DNA from: Acidovorax sp. sic0104
GTDB taxonomy: Bacteria; Pseudomonadota; Gammaproteobacteria; Burkholderiales; Burkholderiaceae_C
Length of the DNA stretch: 64,000 bases
Direction: 5' to 3'
NCBI RefSeq assembly: GCF_019219095.1
Contig: NZ_JAHUWH010000001.1
Coordinates: 496,001 to 560,000, forward strand
Shown one piece after another: positions 49,178 to 63,792 of the stretch. Positions within the stretch are counted from its first letter, which is position 1; each line of letters starts with the position of its first letter. Below the pieces are notes generated by a model that saw nothing but the letters and a program-made list of their open reading frames with translations, made no database searches and was not told the DNA's origin. Made by a program: the position numbers and the translations under genes.

Positions 49178-49216
49178 AGCTGCTAGCGCTTATCCATCAA
49201 GCGCTAGCGCTTGATT
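49174..49216. repeat. Type A dispersed repeat, copy 11
   Basis: Reverse orientation: ATAGCTGCTAGCGCTTATCC, then AAGCGCTAGCGCTTGATTT, between hisB and hisH. The hisH ATG is at its edge. Confidence 0.8.
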
Positions 49217-51680: not shown

Positions 51681-51716
51681 ATATTACACGAACTTCGTGC
51701 TCCACGAAGTTCGTGT
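51681..51716 (-). promoter_or_regulatory. Promoter/operator of the RHH-PIN pair
   Basis: Perfect inverted repeat ACACGAACTTCGTG / CACGAAGTTCGTGT (51686-51699 and 51703-51716) with a three-base spacer. On the minus strand TAATAT (51681-51686) is a -10 ending six bases before the ATG; TTGACA lies at the far edge (51714-51719) but too far from it. Confidence 0.75.

Positions 51717-55810: not shown

Positions 55811-55814
<4 letters not shown>
55155..55814 (-). CDS. hisG: ATP phosphoribosyltransferase, short form
   Basis: First step of histidine synthesis. 219 residues, the short HisG(S) form without the C-terminal regulatory ACT-like domain; it works as a hetero-octamer with His[32 protein letters not shown] and [14 protein letters not shown] (PRPP-binding) are conserved. 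No hisZ is in the window; in betaproteobacteria hisZ usually sits elsewhere, near purA. Overlaps murA by ATGA. Confidence 0.96.
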
Positions 55815-57097
<1,283 letters not shown>

Positions 57098-57134
57098 CTC
57101 GAAAAGAACCAGGAATAGGGGTAAAAAATGCCGC

Positions 57135-57180
57135 TATCGCGCTTTCACAAAGCGTCAATAGCTATAAAAATCATAGCGAT
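57135..57180. repeat. Type A dispersed repeat, copy 12
   Basis: Both hairpins are present: CGCTTTCACAAAGCG and TAGCTATAAAAATCATAGC, between bolA and murA. Confidence 0.8.
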
Positions 57181-57185
57181 TGGGA

Positions 57186-57428
57186 CTACTTCGGCTGCGC
57201 GGCCCATTCGCCGGGCGTGAAGGTCTTCATCGACAGCGCATGCACTTCATCGGTGTGCATTTTGGCGCCCAGCGTGGCGTACACCCGCTGGTGGCGCTGG
57301 ATGGCGCGCTTGCCCTCGAACTCGGCCGAGACGATGGTGGCGTACCAGTGGCGGCCGTCGCCTTCGAGCGTGATGTGTTCGCAGGTCAGACCCGCGGTGA
57401 TGATGTTCTGGAGTTCTTCTGCAGTCAT
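57186..57428 (-). CDS. BolA/IbaG-family protein
   Basis: 80-residue BolA-like protein (IbaG/YrbA type): LTCEHITLEGDGRHWYATIV and the conserved AIQRHQRVYATLGAKMHTDEVHALSMKTFTP block with the helix-turn-helix-like core and His ligand. Such proteins form [2Fe-2S] complexes with monothiol glutaredoxins, of which grxD is in this window. ibaG lies beside murA and mlaB in E. coli too. Confidence 0.94.
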   Translation of the reverse strand: MTAEELQNIITAGLTCEHITLEGDGRHWYATIVSAEFEGKRAIQRHQRVYATLGAKMHTDEVHALSMKTFTPGEWAAQPK

Positions 57429-57444: not shown

Positions 57445-58200
57445 TCAATTGCGAATTTTGTAGCCGGTGCGCAGCAGGTTCACGGCCAGCGCACTCACTG
57501 CCAGCCATGCGACGCCCACGATGCCCAGGCTCAGCCAGGGCGATGTGTCGCTCTGGCCGAAGAAACCATAGCGAAAGCCGTCGATCATGTAGAAGAACGG
57601 GTTGAGGTGGCTCACCGTCTGCCAGAAGGGCGGCAGCGACTGGATCGAATAGAACACGCCCGACAGGAAGGTCATGGGCACGATGATGAAGTTCTGGAAC
57701 GCAGCCATCTGGTCGAACTTGTCGGCCCACAGGCCAGCCAGCAGCCCCAGCGTGGCCAGCAGCGCCGCGCCGAGGAAGGCGAACGCCAGGATCCACAGCG
57801 GCGCCGCGAATTCGGGTCGCGCGAAGGCCAGCGTGACGATGAACACCCCGAGCCCCACCACCAGCCCGCGCACGATGGAGGAGCCCACGTAGGCACAGAA
57901 CCACGCCCAGTGTGACAGCGGCGTGAGCAGCACGAACACGAGGCTGCCCATGATCTTGCTCTGAATGATGCTCGACGAGCTGTTGGCAAACGCGTTTTGC
58001 AGCACGCTCATCATGACCAGCCCGGGCACCAGGAACGCGGTGTAGCTGATGCGGTCGTAGACCTTCACGTGGTCTTCGAGCACGTGGCCGAAGATCAGCA
58101 GGTACAGCACGGCGGTAAGCACGGGCGCGGCCACGGTCTGGAAGCTGACCTTCCAGAAGCGAAGCACTTCCTTATAAAACAGGGTCTGCCAGCCGGTCAT
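57445..58200 (-). CDS. ABC-2 type exporter permease
   Basis: 251 residues with six membrane segments, for example TVAAPVLTAVLYLLIFGHVL, LVPGLVMMSVLQNAF and the closing LGIVGVAWLAVSALAV. The ABC-2 signature FIIVPMTFLSGVFYSIQSLP is present. It resembles E. coli YadH. The ATG overlaps the stop of the ATPase gene (ATGA). Substrate unknown. Confidence 0.92.
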   Translation of the reverse strand: MTGWQTLFYKEVLRFWKVSFQTVAAPVLTAVLYLLIFGHVLEDHVKVYDRISYTAFLVPGLVMMSVLQNAFANSSSSIIQSKIMGSLVFVLLTPLSHWAWFCAYVGSSIVRGLVVGLGVFIVTLAFARPEFAAPLWILAFAFLGAALLATLGLLAGLWADKFDQMAAFQNFIIVPMTFLSGVFYSIQSLPPFWQTVSHLNPFFYMIDGFRYGFFGQSDTSPWLSLGIVGVAWLAVSALAVNLLRTGYKIRN

Positions 58201-59222
58201 AGTGGTGCCCCCACGCTCGGCACTGGCGTGTCCTCGCTGCCCCCCGAGGGGGCCCCGCCTTGCTTGGGGCGGCCCGGCGCTGCGGCGGACGCAAACTTGT
58301 CCAGAGAAATATTCGATGCCGAGGTGCCCGACATCACCTGCAGGAACACATCCTCCAGGTCGGGTCTGCGGATCTCCATGTCGTGAACGTCGACACCGCC
58401 CAAGCGCAGCGCGGCCAGATGGCTCTCGATCTCGGCGGCGTCGTGCGCGGGCAGCTGCACGATGCGGCCTGTGACGCGCGCCACGGTGGCCAGCGACGGC
58501 GGCAGCACCGCATCGGTCTTGAACTGGAGCACGCTGCCCGAAGCAGCCTGCAGCAGTTCGCTGGTGCGGTTGAGTGCCACGATCTGCCCGGTCTTGAGCA
58601 TGGCGATGCGTCCGCACAGCGCCTCGGCTTCTTCAAGGTAGTGCGTGGTGAGCAACACGGTGTGGCCTTCCTTGTTCAGGCGGGCGACGAAGTGCCAGAG
58701 CGTCTGGCGCAGCTCCACGTCCACACCCGCCGTGGGTTCGTCGAGCACGATGATCGGCGGCTTGTGCACCAGCGCCTGCGCCACCAGCACGCGGCGCTTC
58801 ATGCCGCCCGAGAGCTGGCGCAGGTTGGAGTTGGCCTTGTCGGTGAGGCCCAGGTTTTCAAGCAGCTCGTCGATCCAGGCGTCGTTGTTCTTCACGCCGA
58901 AGTAGCCCGACTGGATGCGCAGCGATTCGCGCACGTTGAAGAAGGGGTCGAACACCAGCTCCTGCGGCACGATGCCGAGCTTGCGGCGCGCGTCGGCGTA
59001 GTCGGCCTGCACGTCGCTGCCCTGCACGAGCACGCGGCCACTGCTGGCACGGGCCAGGCCCGCCAGGATGCTGATGAGGGTGGTCTTGCCGGCGCCGTTG
59101 GGACCCAGAAGGCCGAAGAACTCGCCCTCCTGGATATCCAGGCTGACATTGTTCAGCGCCTGGAAAGGGCCCTTGGGCGTGGAGAAGGTCTTGGAGACGG
59201 CTTGGAATGAGACTGCGGGCAT
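58197..59222 (-). CDS. ABC-2 type exporter ATPase with repeat-encoded tail
   Basis: 341 residues, YadG-like. Walker A GPNGAGKTT (near residue 40), signature LSGGMKRRVLVAQAL, Walker B IIVLDEPTAGVD, and the H-loop TTHYLEEAE. After about residue 310 (end of the normal fold at VMSGTSASNIS) a tail of about 30 residues (PGRPKQGGAPSGGSEDTPV and on) is encoded by a type B repeat. The tail is thus probably an accident of repeat insertion rather than a domain. Confidence 0.92.
   Translation of the reverse strand: MPAVSFQAVSKTFSTPKGPFQALNNVSLDIQEGEFFGLLGPNGAGKTTLISILAGLARASSGRVLVQGSDVQADYADARRKLGIVPQELVFDPFFNVRESLRIQSGYFGVKNNDAWIDELLENLGLTDKANSNLRQLSGGMKRRVLVAQALVHKPPIIVLDEPTAGVDVELRQTLWHFVARLNKEGHTVLLTTHYLEEAEALCGRIAMLKTGQIVALNRTSELLQAASGSVLQFKTDAVLPPSLATVARVTGRIVQLPAHDAAEIESHLAALRLGGVDVHDMEIRRPDLEDVFLQVMSGTSASNISLDKFASAAAPGRPKQGGAPSGGSEDTPVPSVGAPL
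58206..58300. repeat. Type B-like repeat inside the ABC ATPase 3' end
   Basis: GC-rich unit (CTGCCCCCCGAGGGGGCCCC, CTTGCTTGGGGCGGCCC) related to type B, read in frame as the ATPase tail and ending at its stop codon. Confidence 0.7.
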
Positions 59223-59285: not shown

Positions 59286-59558
59286 TCAGGCCGCAGGGGT
59301 GAGCAGCAGACCCACGCCGTACAGCCCCGCCATGCTGCGCAGCGCGGCCGGCAGGCCCTGCACGGCAAAGGTCTTGCGCATGGCCAGCGCTTCACGCCGG
59401 CATTCGAGCAGCACAGCCAGCGCGGAGGTGTCGAACACGGTCAGCGCGTTCGCATCCACCACCACGCCCGGCTCGCGGTGCGCCTTCAGACCCTGCAGCA
59501 GCATGTGCAGGCAGGCCGTAGCTTGGCGCTGGGTGAGTTCGGCCGGCAGGACGAGCAT
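59286..59558 (-). CDS. mlaB: STAS-domain protein MlaB
   Basis: Cytoplasmic subunit of the Mla phospholipid transporter that binds and stabilises MlaF. 90 residues from the ATG at 59558, with AGGAAA ahead. VVVDANALTVFDTSALAVLLE is the STAS core, including the conserved Ser. Follows mlaC; a type B repeat lies between them. Confidence 0.9.
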   Translation of the reverse strand: MLVLPAELTQRQATACLHMLLQGLKAHREPGVVVDANALTVFDTSALAVLLECRREALAMRKTFAVQGLPAALRSMAGLYGVGLLLTPAA

Positions 59559-59597
59559 CTCAAAATTTCCTGATATCAAGAGTAGCCTCTGAGCACT

Positions 59598-59708
59598 GCA
59601 ACCGGCGCGGGCACGCCAGTGCACCCGTGGAACTGGCTCTGCCAGGCCACCGGGTGCGTCCCCCTCCCGCAGGAGAGGGGGAAGGCGCGAAGCGACTCAG
59701 GGGGAGCA
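59598..59708. repeat. Type B repeat, copy 6
   Basis: Minus-strand orientation, beginning four bases after the mlaC stop (CCCCCTGAGTCGCTTCGCG), with CCCCCTCTCCTG/CAGGAGAGGGGG-type arms and a GGCCTGGCAGAGCC part. Confidence 0.85.
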
Positions 59709-60350
59709 CTACTTGCCGCTTGCGTTGGACTTGTTGCGAGCCACCAGGGTCTCGATAAGGCCGTCGACGCCCTTGGCATTGATCTCCTGGGCGAACTGGC
59801 CACGGTAGGTTTCGACCAACCACACGCCCAGAACGTTCAGGTTGTAGATTTTCCAGCCAGCGCCGTCGCCGGGGGTCTTCTCCAGGCGATAGTCCAGCTG
59901 GATGGGGTCGCCACGGCCGACGATCTCGGTGCGAACCAGCACGTCCTTGTCGGCAGGATCGGCACGCAGGGGCTTGACCTGGATGGTCTGGTCGTTCACC
60001 TGGGCCAGCGCGCCCGCGTAGGTGCGCACGAGCAGGATCTTGAACTCGTCCTGCAGGCGCTTTTGCTGCTCGGGCGTGGCCTGGCGCCAGCCGGGGCCGA
60101 CTGCGGCGGCGGTCATGCGGCGGAAATTCACATTGGGCATGACGGTCTTGTCGACCAGCGCAATGATCTTGCCCAGATCGCCGCCCTGGATGGCCTTGTC
60201 CGACTTCACGGTGGTCAGCACATCGGCAGACAGGCGCTTGATCAGCGCATCGGGCGCCTCGTCTGCCGCCAGCGCCGCAAAGGGCAGGCCGAGTGCGGCC
60301 ACTGCTGTCAGGCACAGGGCCGCTCGGCCCAGGGTGCGTCGGTTCATCAT
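59709..60350 (-). CDS. mlaC: Periplasmic phospholipid carrier MlaC
   Basis: 213 residues. Signal peptide (RAALCLTAVAALGLPFAALA, cut after AALAA), then the MlaC/Ttg2D fold with PNVNFRRMTAAAVGPGWRQA, EFKILLVRTYAGAL and DGAGWKIYNLNVLGVWLVETYRGQF. It ferries phospholipids between MlaA and the MlaFEDB complex. Two adjacent ATGs (60350, 60347) are possible starts. Confidence 0.95.
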   Translation of the reverse strand: MMNRRTLGRAALCLTAVAALGLPFAALAADEAPDALIKRLSADVLTTVKSDKAIQGGDLGKIIALVDKTVMPNVNFRRMTAAAVGPGWRQATPEQQKRLQDEFKILLVRTYAGALAQVNDQTIQVKPLRADPADKDVLVRTEIVGRGDPIQLDYRLEKTPGDGAGWKIYNLNVLGVWLVETYRGQFAQEINAKGVDGLIETLVARNKSNASGK

Positions 60351-60505: not shown

Positions 60506-61312
60506 TCAACGCGGGGGTTCTTCAGGCAGCACGCCATCGTTGCTGTTGCCGCCGCCTTTGCCATTGCCGTTGCGCTCATCCCTGTCGTCCCCGTTCTGGG
60601 CCGTGCCGGCCTGCTGCTGGCTGCGCACCTGCAGGAAAACGTCGCGGGTGAAGCTGTACTTGTCCAGCGCTGCGCTGTCGAGCACCGAACTGGCGCGCAG
60701 CAGGTTGGAGCGGGTGTCCACGACGCGCAAGGCATAGAGCGAGTTGCGCGCCGAGACCGGGTCCACGTAGCTCACCACATTGCCCTTCATGTCGACCGGC
60801 AGGGCCAGGGTGTCACGCACGGTGGAAGGCCCCAGGATCGGCAGCACCAGATACGGACCCGTACCCACACCCCAGTACCCCAGCGTCAGGCCGAAGTCCT
60901 GCTTGTAGCGGTCGATGCCCAGCTCGCTGGCGATGTCCAGCACGCCACCCAGGCCCATGAAGGTGTTCACATTCACCCGCATGAAGGTGGACGCGGCGGC
61001 CTCGCCGCGCAGCTGCAGCACGTTGTTGAAGAACGACCACACGTCGCCCAGGTTCGCAAAGAAGTTGCTGACCCCGGTGCGCACTGGTGCCGGCGTCACG
61101 TCCTTGTAGGCAATGGCAACCGGCTTGAGCACGAGCGCATCCACCTGCTCGTTGAAATTGGTCATGCTGCGGTTGTACGACTCGAGCGGATCGCGCGGGT
61201 CGGGGTTGGCCACGGTGGCGCAACCGGTGAGCAGCGCCGCGCCCAGCACGAACGCCAGCCACGCGACGGCGCGGGCGGCGGGTTGGGAAAAAAGCTTGGT
61301 CTTCGTCGTCAT
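60506..61312 (-). CDS. mlaA: Outer-membrane lipoprotein MlaA (VacJ)
   Basis: 268 residues. Lipobox LLTGC with Cys31 marks lipidation. DPRDPLESYNRSMTNFNEQVD, FFANLGDVWSFFNN and the GYWGVGTGPYLVLPILGPSTVRD block are the VacJ signature. The C-terminal tail is polar and Gly/Asn-rich. Here mlaA sits inside the mla operon between mlaD and mlaC, unlike E. coli, where it is separate. The ATG overlaps the mlaD stop (ATGA). Confidence 0.96.
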   Translation of the reverse strand: MTTKTKLFSQPAARAVAWLAFVLGAALLTGCATVANPDPRDPLESYNRSMTNFNEQVDALVLKPVAIAYKDVTPAPVRTGVSNFFANLGDVWSFFNNVLQLRGEAAASTFMRVNVNTFMGLGGVLDIASELGIDRYKQDFGLTLGYWGVGTGPYLVLPILGPSTVRDTLALPVDMKGNVVSYVDPVSARNSLYALRVVDTRSNLLRASSVLDSAALDKYSFTRDVFLQVRSQQQAGTAQNGDDRDERNGNGKGGGNSNDGVLPEEPPR

Positions 61313-61803
61313 TTCTTGTCACCTGCCCCTGCGGGCTTGCTGTTGCTGCCGTCTTCGGCCTTGTTGTAGAGGAATTGTCCGATCAGGTTCTCGAGCACCA
61401 CGGCGGACTGCGTGGAGGTGACCATGTCGCCGGCCACCAGGTTCTTCTCGTCCGCACCGGCCTCGATGCCGATGTACTGCTCGCCTAGCAGGCCGCTGGT
61501 GAGGATCTTGAGGGAGCTGTCCTTGGGGAAAGCGTAGCGTTTTTCCATGGCCAGCGTCACGCGGGCCTGGTAGGTCTTGTCGTCGAACGTGATGGACTCC
61601 ACGCGCCCCACCACCACGCCGGCGCCACGCACCGCGGCCTGGGGCTTGAGGCCGCCGATGTTGTCAAACCGCGCGGTGATGCGGTAGCCCGACTGGAAGT
61701 TCAGGCTCAGCAGGTTGGCCGACTGAAGCGCCAGAAAGACCAGCGCCGCCGTGCCGAGCATGACGAACAGCCCTACCCAGAGATCGTTTTTGGATGGTTG
61801 CAT
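61309..61803 (-). CDS. mlaD: MCE-domain protein MlaD
   Basis: 164 residues: one N-terminal membrane helix (WVGLFVMLGTAALVFLALQ), then the MCE domain (YRITARFDNIGGLKPQAAVR, GVVVGRVESITFD, LTSGLLGEQYIGIEAG) and a short tail. It forms the hexameric periplasmic ring that accepts lipid from MlaC. 35 bp after mlaE, overlaps mlaA. Confidence 0.96.
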   Translation of the reverse strand: MQPSKNDLWVGLFVMLGTAALVFLALQSANLLSLNFQSGYRITARFDNIGGLKPQAAVRGAGVVVGRVESITFDDKTYQARVTLAMEKRYAFPKDSSLKILTSGLLGEQYIGIEAGADEKNLVAGDMVTSTQSAVVLENLIGQFLYNKAEDGSNSKPAGAGDKK

Positions 61804-61838: not shown

Positions 61839-62621
61839 TCAGACACTGAACATCAGTGCGGTCAGGATGAAGTCGAGCGCAAGCACCGCCAGCGACGCCA
61901 TCACCACGGTGCGCGTGGTGGCACGCGCCACGCCCTCGGGCGTGGGCTTGGCGGCATAGCCCTGCAGGAGCGCGACGAAGGTGACCGTGATGCCGAACAC
62001 GACGCTCTTGATCACGCCGTTGCCCACATCGCGCCACACGTCCACCCCGCCCTGCATCTGGCTCCAGAAGGCACCGTGGTCCACGCCGATCATGACCACG
62101 CCCACGATCCAGCCGCCAATCACGCCCACGGCGCTGAACACCGCAGCCAGCAGCGGCATGGTGATCACACCGGCCCAGAAACGCGGAGCAAGGATGCGGC
62201 GCACCGGGTCGACCGCCATCATTTCCATGGCGCTGAGCTGCTCGCCCGCCCGCATGAGGCCGATCTCGGCCGTGAGCGAGGTTCCCGCGCGGCCCGCGAA
62301 CAGCAGCGCCGTGACCACGGGCCCCAGCTCGCGCACCAGCGAGAGCGCCACCAGCAGGCCCAGCGCTTCGGACGAGCCATAGCGCTGCAGCGTGTAGTAG
62401 CCCTGCAGGCCCAGCACGAAGCCCACGAACAGGCCGGACACCGCGATGATGGCCAGCGAATAGTTGCCCAGGAAGTGGATCTGGTCGCGCACCAGTGCCG
62501 GCCGCATGAAGGCCGCGCCCGCGAGCCGCAGCAGGCGGACGAACAAACGCGCGGCCATGCCGATGTCTGCCAGCTTGCTGCGCACGGCGAAGCCCACGTC
62601 CGAAGGGTTGTACCAGCTCAC
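61839..62621 (-). CDS. mlaE: Mla ABC permease MlaE
   Basis: 260-residue inner-membrane permease. [60 protein letters not shown] (the coupling helix) and the C-terminal [20 protein letters not shown] are diagnostic. Start is a GTG at 62621 that overlaps the mlaF stop (GTGA). Confidence 0.96.
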
Positions 62622-63436
62622 AGGACCTTGCCTCCCAGGGGCCCGAAATCCTCTTCCGCCGAGGGCCCTGCATAGTGGAAAGGCACCGGCCCGGTGGGCA
62701 GCGCGTTCACGAACTGGTGCACCAGCGGGTCGGTGCTGGCGCGCACTTCGTCGGGCGTGCCCTGGGCCGCCACCACCCCGGCGCCCAGGATGATCACATG
62801 GTCCGCCAGGCGGAATGTCTCTTCCAGGTCGTGCGAGACGATGATGCTGGTCAACCCCATGGCGTCATTGAGCTGGCGGATGAGCTGAGCGGCCGTACCC
62901 AGCGAGATCGGGTCGAGCCCGGCGAAGGGCTCGTCATACATGACGAGCTCGGGGTCCAGCGCAATGGCCCGCGCCAGCGCCACCCGCCGCGCCATGCCGC
63001 CGGAGATCTGGCTGGGCATGAGGTCGCGCGCCCCGCGCAGACCCACGGCGTGCAGCTTCATGAGCACCACGTCGCGGATGAGCGTGTCGGACAGATCGGT
63101 GTGCTCGCGCAGCGGAAACGCCACGTTCTCGAAGACGGACAGGTCGGTGAACAGCGCCCCGAACTGGAACAGCATGCCCATGCGCCGGCGGGCCGCATAC
63201 AGCCCCGCAGCATCGAACCCGGCCACGTCCTGTCCGTCGAACATCACCTGCCCGCCCTGCGCCTTCTGCTGCCCGCCGATCAGGCGCAGCACCGTGGTCT
63301 TGCCGCCGCCGGAGGCCCCCATGAGCGCCGTGACCTTGCCACGCGGCACGGACAGCGTCACATCGCGCAAGATCGTGCGGTCGCCATAGGAGAACGTGAC
63401 GTTGCGCAACTCGGCAAGAAAGGAAGGCTCGGGCAT
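62618..63436 (-). CDS. mlaF: Mla ABC ATPase MlaF
   Basis: 272 residues, ATPase of the phospholipid transporter. Walker [18 protein letters not shown]-loop [20 protein letters not shown], signature [15 protein letters not shown], Walker [16 protein letters not shown]-loop SHDLEE. First gene of mlaFEDACB. No purine-rich ribosome-binding site is seen before the ATG. The promoter region 80-110 bases upstream carries a palindrome. Confidence 0.96.
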
Positions 63437-63520
63437 GCGAAAAGGAAGGGATTCAGCGATCCGGGACTGGCCGGGGCCAGGAAAAATGGGGAGGCGGCAG
63501 CAGTGATGGTAGCCGAAGAC

Positions 63521-63548
63521 TTAAACATACATTCATGTATGTTTGCAA
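63521..63548 (-). promoter_or_regulatory. mla operon promoter with embedded palindromic operator
   Basis: On the minus strand TTGCAA (63543-63548) and TTTAAG-like -10 (about 63520-63525) are 17 bases apart. A palindrome with 10-bp arms AAACATACAT / ATGTATGTTT (63523-63532, 63535-63544) covers the spacer, a layout typical of TetR-family repression. Confidence 0.65.
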
Positions 63549-63766: not shown

Positions 63767-63792
63767 AAAAAACGGCGCCCGCTGGCGCCGTT
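63767..63792 (-). terminator. Intrinsic terminator after gltD
   Basis: Arms AACGGCGCC and GGCGCCGTT (63771-63779, 63784-63792) with a CGCT loop; on the minus strand they are followed by six T residues. Confidence 0.9.

Follow-up and report, generated by a model that had tools for sequence, protein, structure and literature searches.

The Mla system excludes phospholipids from the outer leaflet of the outer membrane and thus lessens the entry of hydrophobic drugs and solvents, and RND pumps expel what gets in; the Mla system of Pseudomonas was named Ttg2. In Pseudomonas putida, the tetR-type gene ttgR is divergent from the RND pump operon ttgABC. As reported, the TtgR operator is TTTACAAACAACCATGAATGTAAGTA, situated inside a longer oligonucleotide (PMC4538802), and the operator of E. 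coli AcrR comprises two 10-bp inverted repeats with a 4-bp spacer, 24 bp in total (PMC10597343). The targets of AcrR go beyond acrAB and include flhDC (PMC10597343). No paper tying TtgR to ttg2/mla was retrieved in our literature searches. In this study, we describe a predicted operator upstream of mlaF in Acidovorax that shares its motif with the operator of an RND pump, and drug efflux and lipid-barrier repair are probably switched on here by one repressor.

The 64-kb window (the whole stretch of DNA that was analyzed, 64,000 nucleotides) contains the palindrome AAACATACAT-TC-ATGTATGTTT at 63523-63544, with perfect 10-bp arms and a 2-bp spacer (the plus strand reads AAACATACATTCATGTATGTTT); the AT-rich palindrome of the sequence-only reading is confirmed. 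mlaF, whose start codon is at 63436 on the minus strand, begins 86 bp from it. With its 5' flank (TTGCAAACATACATGAATGTATGTTT), the putative operator occupies 63523-63548 on the minus strand and includes the block CAAACATaCaTGaATGTATG, conserved in the alignment of congeners; a second register, shifted by 4 bp and with 3 mismatches, overlaps the operator within this interval. The site has the ACAT(A/T)CA...TG(A/T)ATGT half-sites of the TtgR/AcrR class of operators and shows 0 mismatches to the merged 22-bp pattern AWACATACANNNATGWATGTWT. At up to 3 mismatches, no second copy of the palindrome itself is present in the window (0 in 100 shuffles), and none elsewhere in the 5.82-Mb genome. The window has perfect palindromes with 10-bp arms and spacers of 0-6 bp at five or six further places (null, about 0.6), but the mla palindrome is the sole AT-rich one (AT-rich null, 0.0). 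Two further symmetric elements of the window are a perfect 20-bp palindrome without spacer at 49196-49215 (ATCAAGCGCTAGCGCTTGAT) and an inverted repeat with perfect 14-bp arms and a 3-bp spacer at 51686-51716 (ACACGAACTTCGTG/CACGAAGTTCGTGT).

The intergenic region between the RND pump operon and its tetR gene holds the operator ATACATACAACCATGAATGTAT, and AWACATACANNNATGWATGTWT fits both this operator and the mla site exactly. Genome-wide, the merged pattern at up to 3 mismatches is found at two places, the mla promoter and the pump/tetR intergenic region; the remaining matches are the opposite strand or the 4-bp-shifted register of those two sites. Similarly, all 13 congeners scanned have the pattern at both the mla and the pump sites, with at most one or two extra 3-mismatch matches, in four of them, and a reversed control pattern matched in only 1 of 14 genomes (3 matches, one strand). 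Genome-wide scans were made by pattern, and the 64-kb window was additionally scanned with a matrix built from 36 pump-linked operators that included no mla site. With this pump-only matrix, the top score in the window, 29.2 bits, belongs to the mla site, followed by 22.8 and 8.7 bits for the overlapping registers of that site and 3.7 bits for the best position unrelated to it. Four scored positions differ between the mla and pump sites. In a scan of 150 family genomes that allowed up to 3 mismatches, the palindrome was located at 26 distinct places. A tetR gene of the TtgR/AcrR-like kind adjoins 17 of them (at L005, it was recognized only by a TetR-like N-terminus read from the sequence), 7 immediately precede mlaF, and the other 2 lie elsewhere. 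In another genome, a run of TATG repeats (L017, 1501-1540) forms a long imperfect palindrome, ATCATACATTCATGTATGTATGTATGTATGTATGAT, and is unlinked to the TtgR homologue found there.

The repressor gene (G000:C15:2427-3077, minus strand) is located away from the mla locus and is divergent from a complete RND pump operon encoding a periplasmic adaptor, a permease and an outer-membrane channel. TtgR of P. putida is the nearest solved protein (E 3e-33), followed by AcrR and NalD. The recognition helix, TRGAIYWHF, matches that of TtgR, and of the 30 TetR proteins detected in this genome the repressor alone has it; likewise, the operator is present only at the locus of this repressor, the next best having 4 mismatches. 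Against the AcrR equivalog model the protein scores 142 bits, below the curated cut-off of 271, and for this reason we label it TtgR/AcrR-type rather than AcrR. The genome with the putative mla operator also encodes a repressor of the matching class. Collectively, these observations bear on three proposals of the sequence-only reading. It had suggested scanning the genome for further copies, and the merged pattern returns only the mla site and the RND pump/tetR operator; it had assigned the mla palindrome to the operator class of AcrR-like TetR proteins, and the pump-linked operator fits the same 22-bp pattern; and it had envisaged a regulator common to mla and an RND pump, a role for which the divergent repressor gene is a fitting candidate.

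The mla site is present in 37 of the 46 Acidovorax genomes that have mlaF. The sequence-only reading had named absence from close relatives as a refuting outcome, and this check did not refute it. In an alignment of these 37, the blocks CAAACATaCaTGaATGTATG and GCTACCAT are conserved, in contrast to freely varying flanks. A repressor orthologue of at least 60% identity is encoded in 36 of the 37 site-bearing genomes, the exception (G180) being a fragmented assembly in which the site occurs without a detected repressor, and in 0 of the 9 site-less ones. For this 36/1/0/9 distribution, Fisher's exact test gives p = 9e-9, a value that overstates the number of independent events because the absences cluster by clade. 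Most of the nine site-less genomes have a repressor of about 50% identity whose operator is laid out differently (ATACATACATTCAAGAATGTATGTAT). This repressor and operator characterize an Acidovorax subgroup (L200-L206, in G182, G155, G162, G174, G153, G152 and G189), and all of its genomes with an mlaF match are without the mla site.

Outside Acidovorax, the mla site is patchy, and several relatives with a TtgR homologue are without it; the link between mla and TtgR is therefore lineage-specific. Similar palindromes before mlaF, possibly gained independently, occur outside the genus at L033, L049, L085 and L022. In Comamonas sp. JUb58 and the L022, L049 and L085 genomes, the sites preceding mlaF look different in detail and may be independent gains. 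Those of the non-Acidovorax genomes with an mlaF site that were checked encode a TtgR-like repressor too. A broader reading, which we offer tentatively and hold to be somewhat doubtful, is that the regulon of the Acidovorax efflux repressor consists essentially of the RND pump and mla, and that similar mlaF operators arose independently in other Comamonadaceae (Comamonas sp. JUb58, L022, L049, L085), with lipid-asymmetry repair placed repeatedly under efflux control.

The genes downstream of the site, all on the minus strand, form an mlaFEDACB operon. The ATPase gene mlaF (62621-63436) has MlaF as its best NCBIfam model at 342.7 bits, under the curated cut-off of 441, and a Pfam ABC_tran match; the permease gene mlaE (61839-62621) matches Pfam MlaE and exceeds its NCBIfam cut-off. 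They are followed by genes for the MCE protein MlaD (translated range 61309-61794; Pfam MlaD), the lipoprotein MlaA (60506-61312; Pfam MlaA), the periplasmic carrier MlaC (59709-60350; Pfam MlaC) and an MlaB-like STAS protein (59286-59624; Pfam STAS_2). Further downstream lie an ABC-2 type exporter pair (57445-59222; ATPase 58197-59222, permease 57445-58212) and, within 55811-57428, a bolA/ibaG-like gene (57186-57428) and murA (55811-57097). Judging by orientation, these genes are possibly on the same transcript as the mla genes; E. coli K-12 also has the conserved core mlaFED-C-B-ibaG-murA. Among named relatives, Acidovorax sp. Leaf191 is the closest, its MlaF being 99% identical. After the gene upstream of mlaF, a terminator-like hairpin (AACGGCGCCAGCGGGCGCCGTT) with a T-rich tail is found at 63771-63792 on the minus strand, and it would insulate that gene from the mla promoter.

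In the sequence-only reading, the operator lay exactly within the 17 bp that separate the TTGCAA and TTTAAG elements of a plausible promoter. These hexamers occur together in just 3 of the 37 congeners, and a consensus scan called no sigma-70 promoter there; we therefore dropped the pair as the mla promoter. Of that earlier account, the AcrR-like operator class, the location at mla and the shared RND regulator are supported, and the placement between that −35 and −10 is not. Instead, a −10-like element, TACCAT (63506-63511, minus strand), is kept in 36 of the 37 and lies 11 bp downstream of the operator; among congeners this distance is 7, 11, 12 or 15 bp, usually 11. TATSAT-like elements are visible by eye upstream of mlaF in other family members. 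With the −10 placed at TACCAT, in the conserved GCTACCAT block, the −35 region of the mla promoter probably falls beneath the operator.

At 15-19 bp from TACCAT there is no convincing −35 hexamer, and the operator sits where one belongs, which leaves room for an activator: the same TtgR/AcrR-type protein might activate mla, or aid RNA polymerase at a promoter lacking a −35, with pump and mla oppositely controlled. There is a parallel for such behavior, as MtrR, a TetR-type efflux repressor of gonococci, is reported to activate off-target genes (PMC4464784). However, the varying distance between operator and TACCAT is easier to reconcile with a repressor that blocks than with an activator that makes contact, and the literature describes TtgR and AcrR as repressors; we regard activation as unlikely. 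Repression, like the position of the promoter, is what we infer for mla.

Another regulator than the TetR protein of the pump might recognize the palindrome, given that the mla and pump operators are not identical and that about 30 TetR proteins are encoded in the genome. Yet the TtgR/AcrR recognition helix, or such an operator alongside, is a feature of just one of these proteins, and congeners without a close TtgR orthologue are also without the mla site, which makes a different regulator quite improbable. It is harder still to believe that the palindrome has no protein ligand, being either an inverted repeat that arose by chance or a hairpin in the RNA of the mla leader. While the window does have several more perfect palindromes with 10-bp arms, this one is strongly conserved between freely diverging flanks, and its motif recurs at the pump operator. 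Because the conserved −10-like element comes after the palindrome, the latter is probably untranscribed, and we set the hairpin reading aside.

We therefore favor, with a probability of roughly 80%, the reading that the palindrome is the operator of a TtgR/AcrR-type repressor that would hold down both the pump and mla until a ligand releases both. In the absence of ligand, the repressor would occupy both operators and keep the pump and the mlaFEDACB operon down, at mla by masking the promoter's −35 region. Binding of a hydrophobic drug, a solvent or a plant phenolic would then free both operators, and efflux and the repair of outer-membrane lipid asymmetry would rise together. The shared operator, as a sequence match, supports this model; the binding, the sign of regulation and the ligand are modeled on the known behavior of TtgR and AcrR. 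If the model holds, barrier repair and efflux would be triggered by ligand as a single response, and both would be expected to change when the repressor loses its function by mutation.

Among the described systems, TtgR is the closest solved relative of the Acidovorax repressor. As in P. putida, the tetR gene is divergent from the RND pump operon, and the TtgR operator TTTACAAACAACCATGAATGTAAGTA and the Acidovorax pump operator have the 15-mer ACAACCATGAATGTA in common, whereas the mla site has only parts of the TtgR operator. With its 2-bp spacer, as opposed to 4 bp, the mla palindrome falls outside the strict 24-bp definition of the E. coli AcrR operator. The E. coli acrA-acrR intergenic region contains TACATACATTCACAAATGTATGTA, 2 mismatches from the merged pattern, and the mlaF-yrbG region of E. 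coli has no such site, the best match there having 8 mismatches. The sequence-only reading had remarked that Mla is not generally described as being under such a repressor. This is borne out insofar as the open-access literature searched, which does not extend to subscription papers, yielded no account of an mla promoter under a TtgR/AcrR-type repressor, the AcrR of Acidovorax included. It needs qualification insofar as drug resistance and Mla are already known to be controlled jointly, because MarA of E. coli activates mlaFEDCB (PMC5684230), improving the barrier against doxycycline (PMC5684230, PMC12052159). MarA is likewise a drug-resistance regulator that governs the mla operon and tightens the outer-membrane barrier. 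In contrast, it is an activator acting on marboxes, and the protein predicted here is a TetR-type repressor acting on a palindromic operator. If correct, the Acidovorax arrangement would represent a second, independent wiring of a logic that E. coli reached through the unrelated activator MarA.
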